Shown here piece by piece: positions 42,756 through 52,117 of a stretch of DNA of 60,828 bases; the stretch's first letter is position 1, and the number at the start of each line of letters is the position of its first letter. The notes beneath the pieces were generated by a model. It saw only the letters and a list, made by a program, of their open reading frames with translations, did not search any database and was not told the DNA's origin. Source of the DNA: Flavobacteriaceae bacterium (GTDB lineage: Bacteria; Bacteroidota; Bacteroidia; Flavobacteriales; Flavobacteriaceae); NCBI GenBank assembly GCA_018699935.1, contig JABISF010000029.1, positions 1 to 60,828 on the forward strand, written 5' to 3'. The translations under genes were made by a program, and so were the position numbers.

Positions 42756-43406
42756 GTGCGGAATAATTTTGGTTTAGTGTTGTTGTTGCTTCCGCTCCTA
42801 TCGTTTTCTCAACGATGGAACGACAGAAGCAAATCATGGGAGGGGTTTAAAGGCATTTCCGTAGGATTTCTCTTTGAAACGCAAACCCAATATCCCGACC
42901 CCTATTACGGTCCCGAAATTAAGGGTTTGCTCAACAATGGGGCCTATCATTTTATGATAGATTTTTACGTATACAATTTTTCAGTGGGCTATCACCTGAC
43001 CGACGAATATTTGTTTCTTCAAAAATTTGATGCCAGCGGAGCGGTTTGGAAACCGCGAGGTTTTAACGGAGACTATTCTTCGCTTACAAAAACGCATTGG
43101 ATCACGGTGGGGTATCAGTGGATTGATAATTTTTATGTAAAGTTGGGTGTAGGATTGCGAAGCGGATCAAAAAAACCGATTATTCTGAGCTCCTACACTT
43201 CCTCCGAAGTTGCAAACAATTTTGATTTTTCAAATCCCCAAATTATTTACAATACAGCAGAGGGATTAACCAACTTCAGTGAACTCGATTTTTTATTATC
43301 ATTTTCTTATACACTAAAGATCATTAAAAATTGGGGGCTAGTACCGGAAATTGGATACAGCTTCAAGCATGGTGGTGTTTTAACAGGAATGAGTATTATT
43401 TATTGA
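42756..43406 (+). CDS. Small outer-membrane-like beta-barrel protein
   Basis: A 216-residue protein with a signal peptide ([19 protein letters not shown]). The mature part alternates polar and aromatic residues (for example [17 protein letters not shown] and [18 protein letters not shown]) and ends with SMSIIY-like strand character, as expected for a small barrel. The start is a GTG at 42756; an in-frame TAG lies immediately before it. The family is not recognised. The stop overlaps the next start (TGATG), so it is coupled to the BspA-like lipoprotein gene. The 170 bp upstream hold only AT-rich sequence and the RAYT relic. Confidence 0.7.
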
Positions 43407-45619
43407 TGGAGGGGTTCAAAAAAATAGTGCTGCTTATGCTGTTGTTTACTACAGGAGCTTGTTTTAACTACAATGGGGCGGATGACGAATGGGGAAGTTT
43501 AACATTGACCGTATTGGCCGAAACGGGTGGTGAGGTCAATACGACCGGAGGCACCTATGTATTGGGCGAGCGGGTCAACCTTACGGCGACCCCCAATTCG
43601 GGCTATGTCTTTACAGGCTGGTCCAATGGTTCCACCACGAGTTCATTGATAATCACCATAGAATCCAGTCAAACGCTTACCGCTTTTTTCGACCTTTTGG
43701 ATGCCACTCCTCCCACCATAACACTATCAGGCGCTGCGACAATCAACCTACAGTTGGGAGCTACTTTTTCAGATCCGGGGGCTACTGCTACGGATGATGT
43801 GGAGGGAGATATAAGCACTGCTATCCAAAGCACAGGACAGGTCGACACCGCTGTTTTGGGGACCTATATTTTGACCTATACCGTTTCCGACACCGCCGGT
43901 AATTCTGCTTCGGTCACGAGAACGGTTCATGTCAATGAAGCCGTACCGTTAATTTATTTTGAAAACGCTATTTGCAAGTGCCCGGAGGCAGGGGTGGGAT
44001 ATACAGAAACCATAGACGAAATAACCTATACCGTTGTGGATGATTCCACGATTGCCCGAGAAATTGCGGAAAACAATATCTATTTATGTACCACTTGGGT
44101 TACGGACATGAGCGAATTATTTAAGTATAATTCCAACTTTGATTTGGATATTGGTTTTTGGGATACGTCAAATGTTACCACTATGGAAGCCATGTTTTAT
44201 GGAGCTTCTGCATTCAATCAAGCCATTGGAGCTTGGGACACTGCACAAGTAACGAACATGAAAGAAATGTTTTATAGCGAGTCCTATGTAACCTTCAAAT
44301 TCAATCAGGATATCAGAGGGTGGAATACGGGCGAGGTCACCACCATGGAAGCTATGTTTTACGGAGCCTCTGTTTTTGATCAAAACATTGGTGCTTGGGA
44401 CATGTCCAAGCTACAATCGATGCGCGCGATGTTTAGTTTTGCGACTCAATTTAATCAAAATATTGGTGGCTGGGATACGTCCCAAGTGACCGACATGAGC
44501 CAAACTTTTAAATCAGCTTCTGCCTTCAATCAGGACATCAGTGCTTGGGACACTTCCAAGGTGACCAATATGAAGGATATGTTTATGTATGCAAAAAGTT
44601 TTAATCAAGCCATTGGCAGTTGGAACACCGCTCAAGTCACCAGCATGGAGGGGATGTTTTATAAAGCCACGGTCTTCAATCAAAACATTGGAAATTGGGA
44701 TACTTCACAAGTAACCACGATGAGCAGTATGTTTTTTGGTGCAGCTGTATTCGATCAACCCATTGGTTCGTGGAAAACCTCGCGTGTTAGTACAATGGAG
44801 GATATGTTCTATGGAGCCATAGCCTTCAATCAGGCGATTGGCAATTGGAATACGTTCCAAGTGACCAATATGTCCGGTATGTTCCTTTTTGCGGAGCGTT
44901 TCAATCAGGACATCGGAGCCTGGAATACGTCCAATGTCGTCACGATGAACAGTATGTTTTCAAACGCCTTGGTGTTCAATCAAGACATCGGGAATTGGAA
45001 TACCTCCAAAGTTATCGATATGGGGAATATGTTCGAAAAAGCAATTGCTTTTAATCAATATATAGGGGACTGGAATACCTCAAAAGCGACGGACATGGGT
45101 CGATTATTTAAAGAAGCTGCCGCTTTTAATCAGGACATTGGTGCTTGGGACACCTCCAAGGTGACCAATATGGTGGGCATGTTCAGTAATGCCGTCAACT
45201 TTAACCAGGATCTGAGTCGTTGGGAAACGTCAAAAGTGAATTTTATGGACGAGATGTTTGTCAATGCCAGTCAGTTTAATCAAAATATAGGTGCTTGGGA
45301 CACTTCCAACGTGACCGATATGCAAGAAATGTTTTATGGAGCAGTTGCTTTTAACCAAGATATTGGTGCTTGGTCAACGCCAAGGGTGAACGATATGCAC
45401 CTGATGTTTTCCGGAGCCATAGCCTTTAACCATGACATTGGAAACTGGGATACATCCAATGTGGGAGATATGGATCAAATGTTTTACAACGCTGCAGCAT
45501 TCAACCAGGACCTTTCCCAATGGTGTGTGCCAAAAATTGAATCGGAGCCGTTTGATTTTTCAAATTTATCGCTGCTCACGGCATCCAATAAACCTGTGTG
45601 GGGCAGTTGTCCAGAATAA
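43406..45619 (+). CDS. BspA/DUF285-repeat surface lipoprotein
   Basis: A 737-residue lipoprotein with lipobox FTTGAC (Cys19). Residues ~32-100 form an InlB-B-like bacterial repeat domain ([18 protein letters not shown]), and ~102-180 a DUF5011/Ig-like domain ([19 protein letters not shown]). From residue 232 to 710 there are nineteen consecutive units of the DUF285 (BspA leucine-rich-like) pattern VTxMxxMFxxAxxFNQxIGxWxTS. All have 25 residues except the third, which has 29. The C-terminus has no type IX sorting domain. Such proteins mediate surface adhesion in several bacteria; the ligand here is unknown. It is coupled to the preceding small barrel gene. Confidence 0.88.
44099..45535 (+). 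repeat. Nineteen coding repeats of ~75 bp (25 residues)
   Basis: The DUF285 units are contiguous, 75 bp each, with one 87-bp unit (third). The protein pattern is well kept but synonymous positions are diverged, so it is an old tandem array and not a recent expansion. Confidence 0.85.
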
Positions 45620-45664
45620 CTCAATTTATATTTTTTTAAAAGAATTTATTTTTTTTGGATTTAG

Positions 45665-45693
45665 GGTAGGGTAAACTTGATAACGATTGTTAT
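45665..45693 (+). promoter_or_regulatory. Candidate ECF-sigma promoter, site 1
   Basis: GGTAGGGTAAA (45665-45675), 8 bp, then CGATTGTTAT (45684-45693). Exactly the same blocks and spacing recur at 51618-51646. It does not resemble the housekeeping TTTG/TAnnTTTG promoter. It lies 28 bp before the ATG of the first gene of the sigma-factor operon, which suggests autoregulation. Confidence 0.6.
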
Positions 45694-45721
45694 AAGGTAA
45701 ATAATACTTAAAAACAAAATC

Positions 45722-46519
45722 ATGAAAAAACTACTAATTTTATTTCTATCTGCTTCCATTTATTCGTGTGCTATAGAGGACATACAAGAACAAGATCTAT
45801 CGGCACTTTTGAATCCCGAAACCACCGCTCTGGAAGAAACAGATTCTAGCACTACCGATTCAAATAGTGGCTTAACGGCGAAAGACACCGACAATGATGG
45901 TATTGAAGACGAAGCCGATGTGGATGTCGATGGAGACGGAGTGAACGACAATGGTACCGATACCGATGGGGATGGAATCAATGATGATTACGATGTCGAT
46001 GTTGATGGGGACGGAGAGGACGACAATGGCACCGATGCCGACGGCGATGGAGTGCTCGATGAAACAAACGAGAATGACGATAATGACGACAATGACGACA
46101 ATGACGACAACGAGGATGAATCCTACGATGACGACAGTTCCGATAGTGATGATGATGATACTGATTACGATAATGATCAAGATTCAGAAGAGGACAGCGA
46201 TATGGATGAAATGAACGATTCCGATAACGATGACAACGATGAGTTTGATTCAGACGACAGCAATGACGTTGACAACGACGATGACCAGGACTCTGACACA
46301 GACTCCGATTTAGACGATACCAATGAAAATGTATCCTCCGATGGAAGCAATTTGAGTGCTGCAATTTTTGCAAAAATTGAGTCTTATATCACCGCAAATT
46401 ACCCCAATCAAAGCATACGCGAAGTCGAAAAAGAAAATCAAAAGATCGAAGTGACGTTGAACAATGGGGTAGAGCTTGTTTTCGATTTAGAAGGTAACTT
46501 TAAAAGAGTTGACAACTAA
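45722..46519 (+). CDS. Asp-rich lipoprotein with PepSY-like C-terminal domain
   Basis: A 265-residue lipoprotein (lipobox SIYSC, Cys16). Residues ~53-115 contain thrombospondin-3-like units such as DTDNDGIEDEADVDVDGDG and DTDGDGINDD, which bind Ca2+ in known proteins. Residues ~115-208 are almost only Asp, Asn, Ser and Glu. The last ~55 residues (IFAKIESYITANYPNQSI, then VTLNNGVELVFDLEG) resemble the PepSY-like (BLIP-like) domain. It is the first gene of the ECF operon, 2 bp... overlapping the next start region by one base (TAATG). An extracellular or periplasmic metal-binding role is inferred only from composition. Confidence 0.75.
   Translation: MKKLLILFLSASIYSCAIEDIQEQDLSALLNPETTALEETDSSTTDSNSGLTAKDTDNDGIEDEADVDVDGDGVNDNGTDTDGDGINDDYDVDVDGDGEDDNGTDADGDGVLDETNENDDNDDNDDNDDNEDESYDDDSSDSDDDDTDYDNDQDSEEDSDMDEMNDSDNDDNDEFDSDDSNDVDNDDDQDSDTDSDLDDTNENVSSDGSNLSAAIFAKIESYITANYPNQSIREVEKENQKIEVTLNNGVELVFDLEGNFKRVDN
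46073..46108 (+). repeat. Four 9-bp tandem repeats in the Asp-rich lipoprotein
   Basis: The unit AATGACGAC (first copy AATGACGAT) occurs four times head to tail and encodes Asn-Asp-Asp. It is in frame, so slippage would change only the linker length. Confidence 0.8.
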
Positions 46520-47127
46520 TGCGAGGCTTTAATCACACCCCTTTCGTATTGCTTTTCTTGTTTGCGCAATTCTTTTTTGCACAAGAAAGTAATTCCTTGT
46601 TCGATCAAATCGACAACAGCGAAAGCAAACAAGAATTTCTTCCTTCCTCTATGATTTTTACCCAAAGGCTTTTGTGGGGTGAAAAAGGAATGATGCGGAA
46701 AACGGGAATTGTTACGCTGAATTTGGAAAACAGAGAGCAAGAATTAAAAATTCGAAGAAAAATGTTGAGTGCACATCAATATATAGGCTACTTAACCTTG
46801 GCGGGGATGGTTGCACAAGGTGTATTTGGAGTAAAATTGTACAATGGTCAATACCAATACGAAGACCTCCATGAAACCATCGGTAATCTAACAACAGCCT
46901 CTTATTTTACCGGTGCAGCCCTATCCCTTTTTACTCCCCCTCCTTTGATAAGCACCAAAAACAAGGGATTGACGTCCATCAAAGCGCACAAGTGGCTGGC
47001 CAGCGTACATTTTTCAGCCATGATTGCCACCAATCTCCTATCGGAAAGCAATAAAAGTGCGCATCGCGCTGCGGCATACACCCTCTTTGGAAGTTATGCC
47101 CTAGCTGTAATCTCTTTTAAATTATGA
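46519..47127 (+). CDS. Four-helix membrane protein, cytochrome b561-like
   Basis: A 202-residue protein with a leader (LLFLFAQFFFAQ), a ~55-residue extracytoplasmic segment and four predicted membrane helices. Each helix starts at or near a His: SAHQYIGYLTLAGMVAQG, DLHETIGNLTTASYFTGA, KAHKWLASVHFSAMIA and AHRAAAYTLFGSYALA. Regular His at helix ends is the pattern of b561-type haem proteins, but I cannot show haem binding. The gene lies between the PepSY-like lipoprotein and the YceI gene and overlaps YceI by 4 nt. A role in transmembrane electron transfer is a hypothesis. Confidence 0.6.
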   Translation: MRGFNHTPFVLLFLFAQFFFAQESNSLFDQIDNSESKQEFLPSSMIFTQRLLWGEKGMMRKTGIVTLNLENREQELKIRRKMLSAHQYIGYLTLAGMVAQGVFGVKLYNGQYQYEDLHETIGNLTTASYFTGAALSLFTPPPLISTKNKGLTSIKAHKWLASVHFSAMIATNLLSESNKSAHRAAAYTLFGSYALAVISFKL

Positions 47128-47681
47128 TAATGATGAAAATAAAAACCATGTTATTCAGTTTTGTCCTGCTGTTGAGTTTTAAAACAGCAATGGCACAAGA
47201 GCAACAATTGAAACTAAATACGGCGGAAAGTGTTATTTCGTATAAGGCAAAACATATTTTGCATGCTTGGGAAGGCATCAACAAGCAGGTCAAAGGAATC
47301 CTAGTAAAAGACGAGAAATCAACGGACATCAATAAAATTGCAATCTTGGTGTTGGTTAAAGATTTTGACAGCAACAACAGTGGACGTGACGCTCATGCAC
47401 TGGAAGTCTTGGAAGCCTTATCTTTTCCCGAAGTACGTTTTTATTCCGAAACAATTGAGAACGAAGAAAAAACCATCCAACTTACCGGGACTTTCGAATT
47501 TCACGGTGTGAAAAAAGAAAAAAAGATACCAGTAGCATGGACTGAGAAGTCCGATAAATTGATTTTAAAAGGTAACTTTGAACTCATTCCAACCGACTTT
47601 GGGATAACATTGCCCTCCTTTATGATGGTCGCCATGGAAGATCTTTTAACGTTTGATTTTGAATTAACTTTTAATAAATAA
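47124..47681 (+). CDS. YceI family protein
   Basis: A 185-residue periplasmic protein with a signal peptide ending near TAMAQ. The lipocalin-like YceI fold is indicated by SVISYKAKHILHAWEGINKQ, DFDSNNSGRDAHALEVLEAL, FPEVRFYSE and LTGTFEFHGVKK. YceI proteins bind isoprenoid quinones or similar amphiphiles. This variant keeps the fold but the ligand is unknown. Three Met codons lie near the start (47124, 47130, 47133) and any may be used. It overlaps the upstream gene by 4 nt and the sigma factor gene by 1 nt. Confidence 0.85.
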   Translation: MIMMKIKTMLFSFVLLLSFKTAMAQEQQLKLNTAESVISYKAKHILHAWEGINKQVKGILVKDEKSTDINKIAILVLVKDFDSNNSGRDAHALEVLEALSFPEVRFYSETIENEEKTIQLTGTFEFHGVKKEKKIPVAWTEKSDKLILKGNFELIPTDFGITLPSFMMVAMEDLLTFDFELTFNK

Positions 47682-48202
47682 TGAAGATTGTAGGTCAAGG
47701 GGAGTTGTGTAACGAAAATGCACATAAAGAAATTTATCTTTCTTACTCGAAAGGATTGTACCGCTTTTTGACCTACTCCTTTGGCGATAGCATTGATGCC
47801 GAGGACATTACTCAAAATGTATTTTTAAAACTTTGGGAAGAATGTTCAAAATACCGATTGGACAACATCAAAAGTTTGATCTACACCATGGCAAAAAATC
47901 AGAGTTTAAATCGATTGAAAAGGAATAAAATTAAAAATGAACAGCCTTTACCAAAAGCGATTGATTTTCAATCGCCCGAATATGAAATGGAAGAAAAACA
48001 GTTTAAAGACCAACTTTCGGCAGCTATTGGAAGCTTGACCGAAAACGAAAAAACTGTTTTTTTGATGAGTCGCATTGATGATTTGGGCTATAAAGAAATT
48101 GCAGAGCGCTTGGAAATCAGCCAAAAAACGGTCGAAAAACGAATGCATAATGCATTAAAAAATTTGAATAATCGCTTATCCGTAAACCTTAAAAGAAAAT
48201 AG
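47681..48202 (+). CDS. ECF sigma factor (FecI-like)
   Basis: A 173-residue sigma-70 family protein of the extracytoplasmic function type. Region 2 reads IYLSYSKGLYRFLTYSFGD then DAEDITQNVFLKLWEE, and region 4 reads LTENEKTVFLMSRIDDLGYK then IAERLEISQKTVEKRMHNAL. It is directly followed by a FecR-type anti-sigma gene and an STN-domain receptor, the arrangement of cell-surface signalling. It probably recognises the bipartite motif at 45665 and 51618. The start overlaps the YceI stop (TAATG). Confidence 0.92.
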   Translation: MKIVGQGELCNENAHKEIYLSYSKGLYRFLTYSFGDSIDAEDITQNVFLKLWEECSKYRLDNIKSLIYTMAKNQSLNRLKRNKIKNEQPLPKAIDFQSPEYEMEEKQFKDQLSAAIGSLTENEKTVFLMSRIDDLGYKEIAERLEISQKTVEKRMHNALKNLNNRLSVNLKRK

Positions 48203-48204
48203 GC

Positions 48205-49077
48205 ATGGAAGAACATTACTTATCAAAATGGATGGAGGGAAGTGTTGGCGATGCGGAAATTGTAGAACGCGATGGAGCAGAAGCACTCAAAAATTATCAA
48301 TCGATTCTTAAAAGCGTTGACGATTTAAAAGTATCGATTCCAGAAAGTTTGGAATGGGAAAAGTTCTCTCAACAATTAAAAAAGCATCCCAAAAAACAGA
48401 AAAAATCACATCCTAAAATTTGGGCGATGGCAGCCGCTTTATTGGTTTTGCTGGGCGTACGTTTCTTTTTCTTTACGGACGTGGTCATTGCTTCTCAAGC
48501 CAATCAGAGCCTACATGTTTTGACAGATGGCAGTCAAGTCGAACTGCGCCCCAATTCGGAGTTGCGTTATCAACGATCGTTCGGATGGTGGAACAGAAAG
48601 CTCCGTTTGGAGGGAGATGCAACTTTTCGGGTGACCAAAGGATCTACTTTTACGGTAGAAACTTCCAATGGTGCCATCACTGTTTTGGGAACTGTCTTTA
48701 GAGTAATAAGTGCCGAAGATTTTTTTAGTGTTCATTGTGAGGAAGGAAAAGTGAAAATAAGTCGAGATGATGCCGATTATATTTTAGAAAAAGGAAATCG
48801 TTACAATAGTGTCACCAATACGGTGGAGGAATTTCAACGTAGTGCAGGTATGAAGGATAATCAAATTTTATACAACCGAACGCCACTTTCTTTTATCGCC
48901 AAAGTAGTTGCTCAAGTGTACGGCATTCGAATTAACTTGAAAACCAAAAACGAACTGTATTTTACAGGGGCGATTCCTCTAAACGATCAGGAAAAAGCCT
49001 TGCAGGCCCTTTCAATTCCCTTTGCTTTAAAAACAGTGATAAACCAAGATGCATCTATTGATATTGTTAAAGAGTAA
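48205..49077 (+). CDS. FecR-type anti-sigma factor
   Basis: A 290-residue membrane-spanning regulator. The N-terminal ~70 residues are cytoplasmic and bind the sigma factor; one helix (WAMAAALLVLLGVRFFFF) spans the membrane near residues 73-90. The periplasmic FecR domain contains LTDGSQVELRPNSELRYQ, LRLEGDATFRVTKGSTFTV and TVLGTVFRVIS. A C-terminal STN-like segment (FIAKVVAQVYGIRINL) follows. It passes a signal from the outer-membrane receptor to the sigma factor. It lies 2 bp after the sigma gene and overlaps the receptor gene by 29 nt. Confidence 0.92.
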   Translation: MEEHYLSKWMEGSVGDAEIVERDGAEALKNYQSILKSVDDLKVSIPESLEWEKFSQQLKKHPKKQKKSHPKIWAMAAALLVLLGVRFFFFTDVVIASQANQSLHVLTDGSQVELRPNSELRYQRSFGWWNRKLRLEGDATFRVTKGSTFTVETSNGAITVLGTVFRVISAEDFFSVHCEEGKVKISRDDADYILEKGNRYNSVTNTVEEFQRSAGMKDNQILYNRTPLSFIAKVVAQVYGIRINLKTKNELYFTGAIPLNDQEKALQALSIPFALKTVINQDASIDIVKE

Positions 49078-51622
49078 TTTTGTAGTTCTTTTTCGGGTTT
49101 TTGTAATCTTGTTTCCCCTGTATCTTTGCAGTCAACAAAATCCCAAAAATCTGAAGCAAACTTTGGGAGCAGCCGAAGAAGCATTTCAGGTGTCTTTTTC
49201 CTACGACGATGATTTTATTCAAAATTGGCTAAGTCCAGAAACGCCCTTACCCAAAACCTTGGATGAATTTTTGGAACAGTTGCAACGCGATTATCAAATT
49301 GCCTATCAGCGGTGGGAAGCCAACATCTTGCTGGCTCCCCAAAAAAATGTTCCCAGCACAACAATATGTGGCTATATCAAAAGTCAACTTTTTGAAAACG
49401 GATTGGAAAATACTTTGGTGGTATTGGGAAAACAATTTGTTTACGCCGATGCCTTTGGCTTTTTTTCAATAACCACTCAGGACACCACTACAAAAAGCTT
49501 GCTTTTTAAAAACATCAACTTTGGATCTCAGACACTTGATATTGCTCCCGGAGCAGATTGTTTTGAATATTTTGTAGATCAGAATGAAATCAAATTGGGA
49601 GAAGTGATTTTGAATTATATTGCCCCACCTATCGAAAAGAGCAGTAATGGTGTTTTCACCATAAATCTAGAAGGGACTAACATCGTTCCCGGCTCAGTAA
49701 ATCCGGATATTTTTCAACTATTGCAATTGTTGCCGGGGGTGAGCAATCCCAATGAAAACAACACGGTATTTGTGCGGGGAGGTACCCCCGACCAAAATAT
49801 TGTCCAGTGGAATAAAATTCGTTTGTATCAAAACAATCACGCCAATGGAGGGCTGTCCTCCATCAATCCCTATGGGTTGAATTCTATTCAACTTATGGTC
49901 AAAGGGGTGCCTGCTCATTTTGGGGAGCATACTTCTGGTTTGATTTTATTGGAAAATCTAAAATTCTCTGACCAAAAAAAAATGGATGTATCGGCGGGCT
50001 TGAATCTGTTAGATGCTGATCTGGTTGTTCAATTACAAACCGAAAAAAAGCTACAGCTAAATCTTTCGGCCCGATCGTCTTTTAGGAATACCCTCTCCAA
50101 TGATTTTAGAACCAACACCTTCAACCGACTCATCGCCGTGGAAAACACCTCTGGGGTTGCCAATCCTCTGTCCAATCAGTCCATTTATTATAATGACTTT
50201 ACATTTTCCACCCGATTTCCCATCAATGAAAATCATTTCATAGCCACCAAAGCTTTTTATATTGAAGATCAAATTGACTACGAATTGTCAGACACCGATT
50301 TGGAATACAGAGATGGTTTACAATCCAAAAACTATGGATTTGGTGTTAGCCATTCGTTTCGAAAAAACGGGTGGAATCGCGATTTCAATATTTCGTTTTC
50401 ACATTTTGAAATGGACTATGAACGCTTGTTTGAACAATATGAGTTTGATGAAGAAGAGCAAACTTTGGAAAGTGAATATGAGGATTTTTCCAAACGAAAC
50501 AATCGGGTGGCGGAACTTCAATTTAAGATGTTGCACAAAAAGCAAATCCATCCCGAGCATTTGTTTTTATGGGGGGGAGACTATACCTATCGATCGATTT
50601 TCTTTGAGGATGATTCGGAGGTGAATAATTCGATGTCCAATCGGACAGAAGATTTGACTGGAAATGCTGCAGCACTATTCGGTGCTATAAAATCCAATTT
50701 TTCGGAGCGACATCTATGGGAATTAGGACTGCGGTATAATTATTTCAATGCGATAGCTCTCCATCGGTTGGAGCCACGTATCAATTACAGTCTTTTACTT
50801 CCTTTTCAATGGTCAATCAATGCGACCTACGAAAAAAAATCACAATCCATTTACCGCACAAACCAAACCATCAGCAATATTTCTAACAACAGTAATAATT
50901 TGTGGGCCGGCATTGGGAACAGCTCTTTTCCTTTGTTGAAATCGTCCCAACTCAGTTTGGGGATGACCAAAAGCAATAATAAAACCATATTTGAATTTGA
51001 TTTATACCGCCGAAATTTGGAGGGGATTACCACTTTTAGTTTTGGATATCTCGACCCCAATGATAGGGACTACCATACCGGAGTTGCTGAAATATATGGT
51101 GCTGATTTTTTCTTTCAAAAAAAATGGGAGCGACTCAACCTTTGGGCGTCCTATTCACATCAGGAGAACAAAAACAGCTTTGACGATCTAAAAAACTGGG
51201 TTTGGTTCAACAGCAATTTTTTGGTTCGCGATCAACTAAATACTGGCTTTAGTGTCAATCTGAAGGATTGGTACATTCATCTGAATTATAGCATCAGAAG
51301 TGGAATTCCTTATTCCCAACCCAGCACTGTTATTTTGAATCCGCAGGGCTATGAATTGGTTTACAATACATTAAACGATCGGTTTTTGCCCAATTACGAA
51401 CGCTTAGATTTGAGTGCCTCCAAAAAATGGATGCTCTCCAAGGGGATAAAATTGGATGCCAAAGCCTCTTTTTTAAACCTAACAAACAAAAAAAATGTCT
51501 TGGAGCGAATCCATATTTATGATAAAGGCACCCAAGCTATAAAAGCTTTGGATCGCTATTCTTTAGTGCCTTTTTTCAATGTAGGTTTGCGTTTTTATAT
51601 CAATAATGACCTTTTGAGGTAG
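49049..51622 (+). CDS. TonB-dependent receptor with N-terminal STN signalling domain
   Basis: An 857-residue outer-membrane receptor. After a leader (VFVILFPLYLCSQ) there is an STN domain at about residues 30-100 (LGAAEEAFQVSFSYDD, then LPKTLDEFLEQL), the part that contacts the FecR protein. A carboxypeptidase-regulatory-like domain (GYIKSQLFENGLENTLVV) follows. The plug is near 220-310 (DIFQLLQLLPGVSNPNENN and FVRGGTPDQNIVQW), then a 22-strand-type barrel ends in FNVGLRFYI. The ligand is unknown. The start overlaps fecR by 29 nt. The stop codon lies inside the second ECF-type promoter motif. Confidence 0.88.
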   Translation: MHLLILLKSNFVVLFRVFVILFPLYLCSQQNPKNLKQTLGAAEEAFQVSFSYDDDFIQNWLSPETPLPKTLDEFLEQLQRDYQIAYQRWEANILLAPQKNVPSTTICGYIKSQLFENGLENTLVVLGKQFVYADAFGFFSITTQDTTTKSLLFKNINFGSQTLDIAPGADCFEYFVDQNEIKLGEVILNYIAPPIEKSSNGVFTINLEGTNIVPGSVNPDIFQLLQLLPGVSNPNENNTVFVRGGTPDQNIVQWNKIRLYQNNHANGGLSSINPYGLNSIQLMVKGVPAHFGEHTSGLILLENLKFSDQKKMDVSAGLNLLDADLVVQLQTEKKLQLNLSARSSFRNTLSNDFRTNTFNRLIAVENTSGVANPLSNQSIYYNDFTFSTRFPINENHFIATKAFYIEDQIDYELSDTDLEYRDGLQSKNYGFGVSHSFRKNGWNRDFNISFSHFEMDYERLFEQYEFDEEEQTLESEYEDFSKRNNRVAELQFKMLHKKQIHPEHLFLWGGDYTYRSIFFEDDSEVNNSMSNRTEDLTGNAAALFGAIKSNFSERHLWELGLRYNYFNAIALHRLEPRINYSLLLPFQWSINATYEKKSQSIYRTNQTISNISNNSNNLWAGIGNSSFPLLKSSQLSLGMTKSNNKTIFEFDLYRRNLEGITTFSFGYLDPNDRDYHTGVAEIYGADFFFQKKWERLNLWASYSHQENKNSFDDLKNWVWFNSNFLVRDQLNTGFSVNLKDWYIHLNYSIRSGIPYSQPSTVILNPQGYELVYNTLNDRFLPNYERLDLSASKKWMLSKGIKLDAKASFLNLTNKKNVLERIHIYDKGTQAIKALDRYSLVPFFNVGLRFYINNDLLR

Positions 51623-51646
51623 GGTAAAAATCGCTTCGATTGTTAT
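51618..51646 (+). promoter_or_regulatory. Candidate ECF-sigma promoter, site 2
   Basis: GGTAGGGTAAA (51618-51628), 8 bp, then CGATTGTTAT (51637-51646), identical in both blocks and in spacing to 45665-45693. It overlaps the receptor stop codon (51620-51622) and lies 18 bp before the Rieske gene ATG. Confidence 0.6.
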
Positions 51647-51664
51647 TATAATAAACACTTAATT

Positions 51665-52117
51665 ATGAAAACTTTAAATCGTAGAAAATTCTTAAACAAA
51701 AGTTGTCCAATTTTACTTTCCACCATTGTTGGAAGTACCCTGCTGCAGTATTGTACGGCCGAAGAAATTGCCGAGCAAGCCCCGATTTCTGGTGGATATT
51801 CTGTTTCTGGCAATGTCCTGACCATTGATTTGTCTCATTCCGATTTTGGTGCTTTAGACAGCAAAGGTTGGATCAATTTTGCATCACAAAACCTTTTGTT
51901 GCTCAAAAAATCGGCTACAGAGTATAAGGCTTTTACCAATATTTGCCCTCATGAAAGAGTAAAAAATAAATGGAGTTATTCTGCCTCCACACAAAAGTTC
52001 ACTTGCCATGAACACGACAATGCTTACAGTTCCGATTGTGCAACGGCAGGAAAAGGAGGCGTTTTAGACTGCTATAAGGTAGCCCTAAGTGGAACCCAGT
52101 TAAAAGTGTATTTATAG
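51665..52117 (+). CDS. Rieske 2Fe-2S domain protein
   Basis: A 150-residue exported Rieske protein. The cluster ligands are in NICPHERV (Cys94, His96) and FTCHEHDNAY (Cys114, His117), with the spacing usual for Rieske domains. The N-terminus has a twin-arginine-like NRRKFLNK followed by a lipobox-like LLQYC (Cys30), suggesting export of the folded, cluster-loaded protein and lipid anchoring. Rieske domains transfer single electrons. It is the last gene in the sigma-factor region and has its own copy of the shared promoter motif. The redox partner is unknown. Confidence 0.88.
   Translation: MKTLNRRKFLNKSCPILLSTIVGSTLLQYCTAEEIAEQAPISGGYSVSGNVLTIDLSHSDFGALDSKGWINFASQNLLLLKKSATEYKAFTNICPHERVKNKWSYSASTQKFTCHEHDNAYSSDCATAGKGGVLDCYKVALSGTQLKVYL

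Follow-up and report, generated by a model that had tools for sequence, protein, structure and literature searches.

A bipartite promoter-like element at both ends of a flavobacterial FecI-like sigma factor locus: its probable reader and its variants in the family

Which protein reads a bipartite, promoter-like sequence that occurs in the same form at both ends of a sigma factor locus? The question is raised by a stretch of 60,828 nucleotides from a Flavobacteriaceae bacterium (GenBank assembly GCA_018699935.1, contig JABISF010000029.1, positions 1 to 60,828 of the forward strand; in the following called the window), in which the element stands before a six-gene operon that encodes a sigma factor of the extracytoplasmic function (ECF) type, a FecR-family anti-sigma factor and a TonB-dependent receptor, and once more before the Rieske gene that follows. 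A first-pass annotation of this DNA had taken the element for the promoter of the ECF sigma factor whose gene lies between the sites. This proposal is supported by the conservation of the element before homologous genes and by its box types, which follow the clades of the sigma factors, and it is thus very probable (we put the probability at roughly 0.88) that the encoded sigma factor reads both sites.

The element and its placement

The element has the form GGTAGGGTAAA-N8-CGATTGTTAT and is found at two places on the plus strand, with 0 mismatches and a gap of 8 bp at both and with differing spacers (CTTGATAA at one site, AATCGCTT at the other), as the first-pass annotation had described it:

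45665..45693, + strand: site 1, promoter-like element; boxes GGTAGGGTAAA at 45665-45675 and CGATTGTTAT at 45684-45693; TGTT core at 45688-45691
51618..51646, + strand: site 2, the same element; boxes at 51618-51628 and 51637-51646; TGTT core at 51641-51644

Site 1 ends 28 nt before the ATG of the first operon gene (45722) and site 2 ends 18 nt before the ATG of the Rieske gene (51665), and the distances that had been given for the two genes are borne out by these coordinates. The receptor gene, the last of the operon, has its stop codon (51620-51622) within the first box of site 2, which places this site at the very end of the gene. An overlap of this kind also occurs in several relatives (the rows with an offset of -4), there between the downstream site and the stop codon of the sigma gene.

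No third copy within three mismatches was found in the window, 100 dinucleotide shuffles of it gave no copy at all, and a scan of the whole assembly (2,171,139 bases in 85 contigs, 87.9% complete) with the slightly shortened pattern GTAGGGTAA-N9-CGATTGTTAT at up to three mismatches returned only the two window sites, with 0 matches in the reversed control; at this tolerance there are no copies inside unrelated genes of this genome. A looser genome pattern with two mismatches was dropped as uninformative, as it gave 23 matches against 48 in the reversed control. The bare repeat is the weaker evidence, because the window holds 18 identical gapped pairs when keys of 11 and 10 letters at a gap of 8 are compared (in 40 shuffles the mean was 0.125 and the largest number 3), and the weight rests on placement and conservation.

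For the geometry of the element, a logo and a matrix were made from 117 sites of relatives, the window being excluded. The matrix ranks site 2 first in the window (score 30.1) and site 1 second (28.3), and the third-best place reaches only 6.1; the training sites themselves have a median of 32.1 and a minimum of 19.1. Besides the core, the sites have a purine 3 nt before TGTT (92%), a pyrimidine directly before it (99%) and T/A-rich columns after it, followed by a pyrimidine-purine step at columns 35/36 (81% and 98%), which is 8-9 nt after TGTT and likely marks the transcription start. Transcription in the window is accordingly predicted to start at about 45699-45700 from site 1 and at about 51653 from site 2. 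The next ATG follows the element at a median distance of 22 nt (110 sites with an assigned open reading frame, ORF).

Box types and sigma factor clades in the family

The sigma loci of the family were taken from fetched genomes plus named loci, the best 80 of 401. With near-copies and the window's own sigma ORF counted, the element lies within about 400 nt of 76 of the 110 sigma ORFs in the fetched loci: on both sides and pointing outward in 55, in the same arrangement with an extra upstream copy in one, downstream only in 11 and upstream only in 8, and in the remaining one, L190 from a genome of about 1.9 Mb, it points into the sigma gene. L190 and the window are two cases of a site before the sigma gene, both in rather small genomes, and two cases make no rule. 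In the majority of relatives, the element is not directed at the sigma gene, which is itself no target. A site precedes FecR and the TonB receptor in 19 of 20 loci examined, and the upstream site stands before a divergently oriented gene that often has about 590 codons. The product of this gene is an acidic putative lipoprotein in the locus where it was read (L077, 6107-7876, minus strand) and has BLAST relatives among the loci L075 to L154; no Pfam family scored above the cut-off in the three proteins tested, which are of this kind or its neighbours (L054, L056). The sigma genes have the housekeeping box TAnnTTTG within 120 nt upstream in 53 of 97 cases (all clades pooled; 8.5 expected from mononucleotide shuffles), with 37 of these 53 boxes beginning at a distance of 39 to 25 nt from the start codon.

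In the family, the exact pattern, which in the window matches only site 1, has 312 matches in 151 of 397 family genomes, with 17 in the reversed control. A family scan with one mismatch was not used for this count, since control matches were frequent and some recurring places look like conserved coding sequence. In one genome (G218, one locus of which is L053), 22 element places were found at one mismatch and 0 in the control, more than twice as many as in any other genome scanned, and five of its sites lie in about 8 kb around the sigma gene, which perhaps reflects an expanded regulon.

The 110 sigma sequences were reduced to 99 distinct ones by leaving out two short ones (L061, L079), two distant ones (below 100 bits) and identical copies, and a tree of these was built by a quick method over 171 columns; the clade lists were taken from this tree by hand, and the row of the window was labelled motif-positive by hand in the tree test, its sites being at the operon ends. 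On the tree, the motif label changes 8 times, as against a mean of 26.0 after shuffling, and none of 500 shuffles came as low. Thirty rows have no G-type site (GTAGGGT-N15-TGTT) beside the sigma gene, and 18 of them form one clade with a support of 98 in the Shimodaira-Hasegawa-like approximate likelihood ratio test (SH-aLRT). In this clade of 18, an A-type site (GTAGGA-N16-TGTT) lies downstream of 17 sigma genes and upstream of 14, and a clade of 4 has a C-type site (GTAGGGT-N15-TGTC) downstream of 3 and upstream of 4, each type having 0 occurrences in other rows; as both patterns were drawn up only once the flanks of 29 rows without a G-type site had been read, the counts within the clades are descriptive and it is the zeros elsewhere that are informative. 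Outside these two clades, and with the window and G263 set apart, 68 of 75 rows have the G-type, one of them in the opposite orientation, and in one row the spacing is off by one. Three loci encode two sigma paralogues (L055, L062 and L066), and there each paralogue has its own box type.

The sigma factors with A- and G-type boxes differ most at residues 137, 156, 38-40 and 43, and then at 75, 90, 157, 27 and 148 among others. The sigma factor of the window has Y137, like all 68 G-type rows, and H156, like 40 of the 68. Differences of this sort set the clades apart without all having to concern the DNA. Residues 137, 148 and 156 fall into region 4 (Pfam match 110-162) and may contact the first box.

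Conservation in the genus and other possible readers

Among 38 genomes of the genus, the pattern with at most one mismatch occurs at 13 places. Five of them, namely two each in the window and in G252 and one in G259, fall into an intergenic stretch or the end of a gene, in front of the same two genes; the remaining eight are within open frames at least 132 aa long. In G252 the element is conserved before homologues of both targets, in G259 before the start of the first gene. In G252, one element lies 22 nt before a homologue of the first operon gene, of the same PepSY-like family (51% identity over the last 57 residues, E 6e-14, and 53% over 98 at the start), and is followed after this homologue by a gene other than that of the 202-aa protein found next in the window; the second lies 17 nt before a Rieske gene whose product has 52% identity to that of the window. 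The element of G259 lies 22 nt before a start codon, behind which the contig leaves 31 residues with 61% identity to the start of the G252 protein (E 2e-12). The sigma factor was found in two of the 38 genomes (G000 and G263). The G263 contig, 4,468 bases long, runs from within the gene of the 202-aa protein to within the receptor gene and gave no match to the element, but neither of the two expected places is covered by it. Contigs of three genomes (G263:C28, G252:C63 and G259:C16) end in or near the operon, a hint of a variable or hard-to-assemble region.

Several points weigh against the encoded sigma factor as the reader. The main one is that G252, which is 95% complete, and G259 have the element and no sigma factor of this clade was found in them, the best sigma-profile match in G252 having 79 bits as against 225 for the window's sigma factor; the contigs with the first gene end close to the element in both genomes, and the sigma gene may be unassembled there. 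In addition, 7 of the 75 rows outside the A and C clades have no standard G-type site, the sigma factors of the window and G263 share a long branch (1.61) that separates them from the remaining 97 rows, and the window's sigma factor has Q148 where 63 of the 68 G-type rows have V. Finally, the genome has nine further sigma-profile matches at E values up to 1 (one with E 0.049), and some of these could read the sites.

The alternative that survives best is built on this last point and on G252 and G259, and it holds that the sites are promoters of another sigma factor of the same genome, in which case the encoded sigma factor would be a target and would read another motif. It is improbable, as it is this class of sigma factor that the element adjoins throughout the family and with whose clades it changes at the same places, and as the box type is specific to each sigma paralogue in the three two-paralogue loci. 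Clearly less probable still is an operator, to which a DNA-binding transcription factor would bind at ordinary promoters. Operators, too, may be conserved elements directly ahead of genes, and inside the receptor gene, upstream of site 2, there is a housekeeping-like TAGGTTTG at 51582 (the only one in 51560-51664), which also speaks against the preferred reading. Around site 1, no TAnnTTTG box is present in 45620-45721, and the sites do not conform to the housekeeping promoter of Bacteroidota (TTTG/TAnnTTTG). Against an operator stand this lack of a housekeeping box at site 1, the fixed spacing of the boxes together with the pyrimidine-purine step at promoter distance, the variants that follow the sigma clades, and the element itself, in which neither a palindrome nor a direct repeat was seen by eye. 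Two stretches that are similar by chance or through a repeat, without regulatory function, can be dismissed despite the other identical gapped pairs in the window, as both sites lie 18-28 nt before a start codon, the next-best matrix score is far lower, and the element is conserved before homologous genes in other species, its conservation in G252 and G259 counting strongly against chance.

Genes of the locus and the proposed circuit

If the encoded ECF sigma factor reads both sites, the genes that it would control are the six that follow site 1, with intergenic gaps of -29 to 2 nt, and the Rieske gene after site 2:

45722..46519, + strand: first operon gene, Asp-rich putative lipoprotein with a C-terminal PepSY-like domain (PF11396)
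46519..47127, + strand: 202-aa putative membrane protein, possibly cytochrome b561-like; five invariant histidines, PF03188 below the cut-off
47124..47681, + strand: YceI-family protein (PF04264)
47681..48202, + strand: ECF-type sigma factor, FecI-like by its neighbours (TIGR02985; Sigma70_r2, Sigma70_r4_2)
48205..49077, + strand: FecR-family anti-sigma factor (PF04773)
49049..51622, + strand: TonB-dependent receptor with a signalling-domain-like region at about 26-92, a carboxypeptidase-regulatory-like domain, plug and barrel
51665..52117, + strand: Rieske [2Fe-2S] protein (PF00355), the putative second target

The sigma factor of 173 aa matches PF04542 and PF08281 above the cut-off and TIGR02985 with 127.4 bits (cut-off 126.4), which places it among the ECF sigma factors, and the FecR gene starts 2 nt after it (PF04773, 55.1 bits). 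The first 330 residues of the receptor, taken as a 39-row profile, match the fragment 2a02 of a ferric-pseudobactin receptor (E 0.009) and the putative anti-sigma factor 4m0n (E 0.004), both at residues of about 25-92. In the structure model of the receptor, residues 31-100 form a block with a predicted local distance difference test (pLDDT) score of 89-98, and the fold matches include FoxA (ranks 1 and 4) and FpvA (rank 7), albeit over 291-315 columns at a root-mean-square deviation of 18-20 Å, which is a poor overall superposition; a Pfam STN match was not obtained at E values up to 5. Weakly by sequence, and with the model pointing the same way, the receptor thus appears to carry an N-terminal signalling domain. 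The first gene product is a putative lipoprotein by its leader sequence and by what is generally known of lipobox signals. Just upstream of site 1, a long repeat protein is encoded (43331-45619), the repeat units of which recall what we take to be BspA/DUF285-like surface proteins.

The five histidines of the 202-aa protein are invariant in 10 aligned sequences. Its match to the cytochrome b561 family PF03188 is sub-threshold (E 0.02) and is lacking in the homologue from G137, a profile search of the PDB gave 0 matches, and a single-sequence structure model was discarded for its mean pLDDT of 40.8. The protein is present in 33 of the 397 family genomes (E <= 1e-10), all of at most 2.2 Mb. Of nine such loci read outside the window, eight have the YceI gene after that of the 202-aa protein, and a Rieske-like gene adjoins the pair in G064 and G167 (loci L186 and L188). 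With such recurrent neighbours, it is plausible that the YceI protein, the 202-aa protein and the Rieske protein share an extracytoplasmic redox role. A second pair of the 202-aa protein and YceI is encoded elsewhere in the window's genome (L183:3617-4769).

The circuit would be one of Fec-type surface signalling, in which the TonB-dependent receptor acts on the FecR anti-sigma factor and the sigma factor is the output. Upon a signal from the receptor, FecR would free the sigma factor, which would recognize the first box GTAGGGTA (about -34 to -27) by its region 4.2 and the second box, TGTT with its flanks (about -12 to -9), by its region 2. The free sigma factor would then start its own six-gene operon at about 45700, and with it the synthesis of more sigma factor, FecR, receptor, YceI protein, 202-aa protein and Asp-rich protein, and would also start the Rieske gene at about 51653. 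With site 1 at the head of an operon that includes the sigma gene, the sigma factor would autoregulate and be amplified along with its inhibitor. The autoregulated local regulon that the first-pass annotation had suggested is consistent with this position of site 1, but as most relatives have no site before the sigma gene, it would be a local variant.

The boxes of the window appear to differ from classical ECF promoters. With the Fec system of E. coli (FecI-FecR-FecA), the locus shares the order of sigma factor, FecR and TonB receptor as well as the signalling-domain-like N-terminal region of the receptor. The fecIR transcription is Fur-regulated and not autoregulated according to a review (PMC9249621), and the sigma factor of E. 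coli is thus outside its own regulon, whereas a site heads the operon of the sigma factor in the window; this is a feature of the E. coli fec system and is not taken as required of every Fec-type system. The SM6 motif of Flavobacterium psychrophilum is also a proposed flavobacterial ECF promoter and has an ECF sigma/anti-sigma pair among its targets; according to its description (PMC9723704), its -10 region carries a CGT box and its targets include several type IX secretion genes, in contrast to the window element with its TGTT and other targets, and neither of the 29-base window sites contains CGT. In Bacteroides thetaiotaomicron, PM2 is a non-canonical -30/-10 promoter (PMC7366714), and two promoters linked to SigW-1 (ECF251) have TGTT near -10 and have been matched by the authors to a non-canonical motif, which the promoters of SigH-1 (ECF114) resemble as well, the SigW-1 motif itself being reported as non-significant (PMC12596196). 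The likeness to the window element lies in the TGTT near -10, and the targets are other ones. The Bacteroides systems with FrrF-type anti-sigma factors, too, combine an ECF sigma factor, a membrane anti-sigma factor and a TonB-type porin, but those described are associated with sugar utilisation genes and the targets of the window are not. No paper describing this element was found in the literature searched, with most subscription journals, preprints and all supplements outside the search. Systems of this kind are known, but neither the promoter sequence nor its variation with the sigma clade nor the step from outward control to autoregulation appears to be described in that literature.

For the family as a whole, it is an even bet that FecI-like sigma factors have clade-specific box pairs (GTAGGGT/TGTT, GTAGGA/TGTT and GTAGGGT/TGTC) on both sides of the sigma gene that change with residues 137, 148 and 156 and perhaps with residues 38-43 in region 2. 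In the common circuit, the sigma gene would be under a housekeeping promoter and the element would drive the receptor, the anti-sigma factor and a surface lipoprotein, and in the small-genome lineage of the window, the box at the operon head would have brought about self-amplification and the inclusion of a redox module (YceI, b561-like protein and Rieske protein). ECF promoters are hard to predict, as PMC3878776 states, and Bacteroidota can carry many ECF sigma factors (50 as an example). Should the sites beside the sigma genes be the promoters that these sigma factors read, sequence alone would suffice to find the promoters of many of them, regulons could be listed genome by genome, and pairs of sigma factor and box could be swapped and tested.

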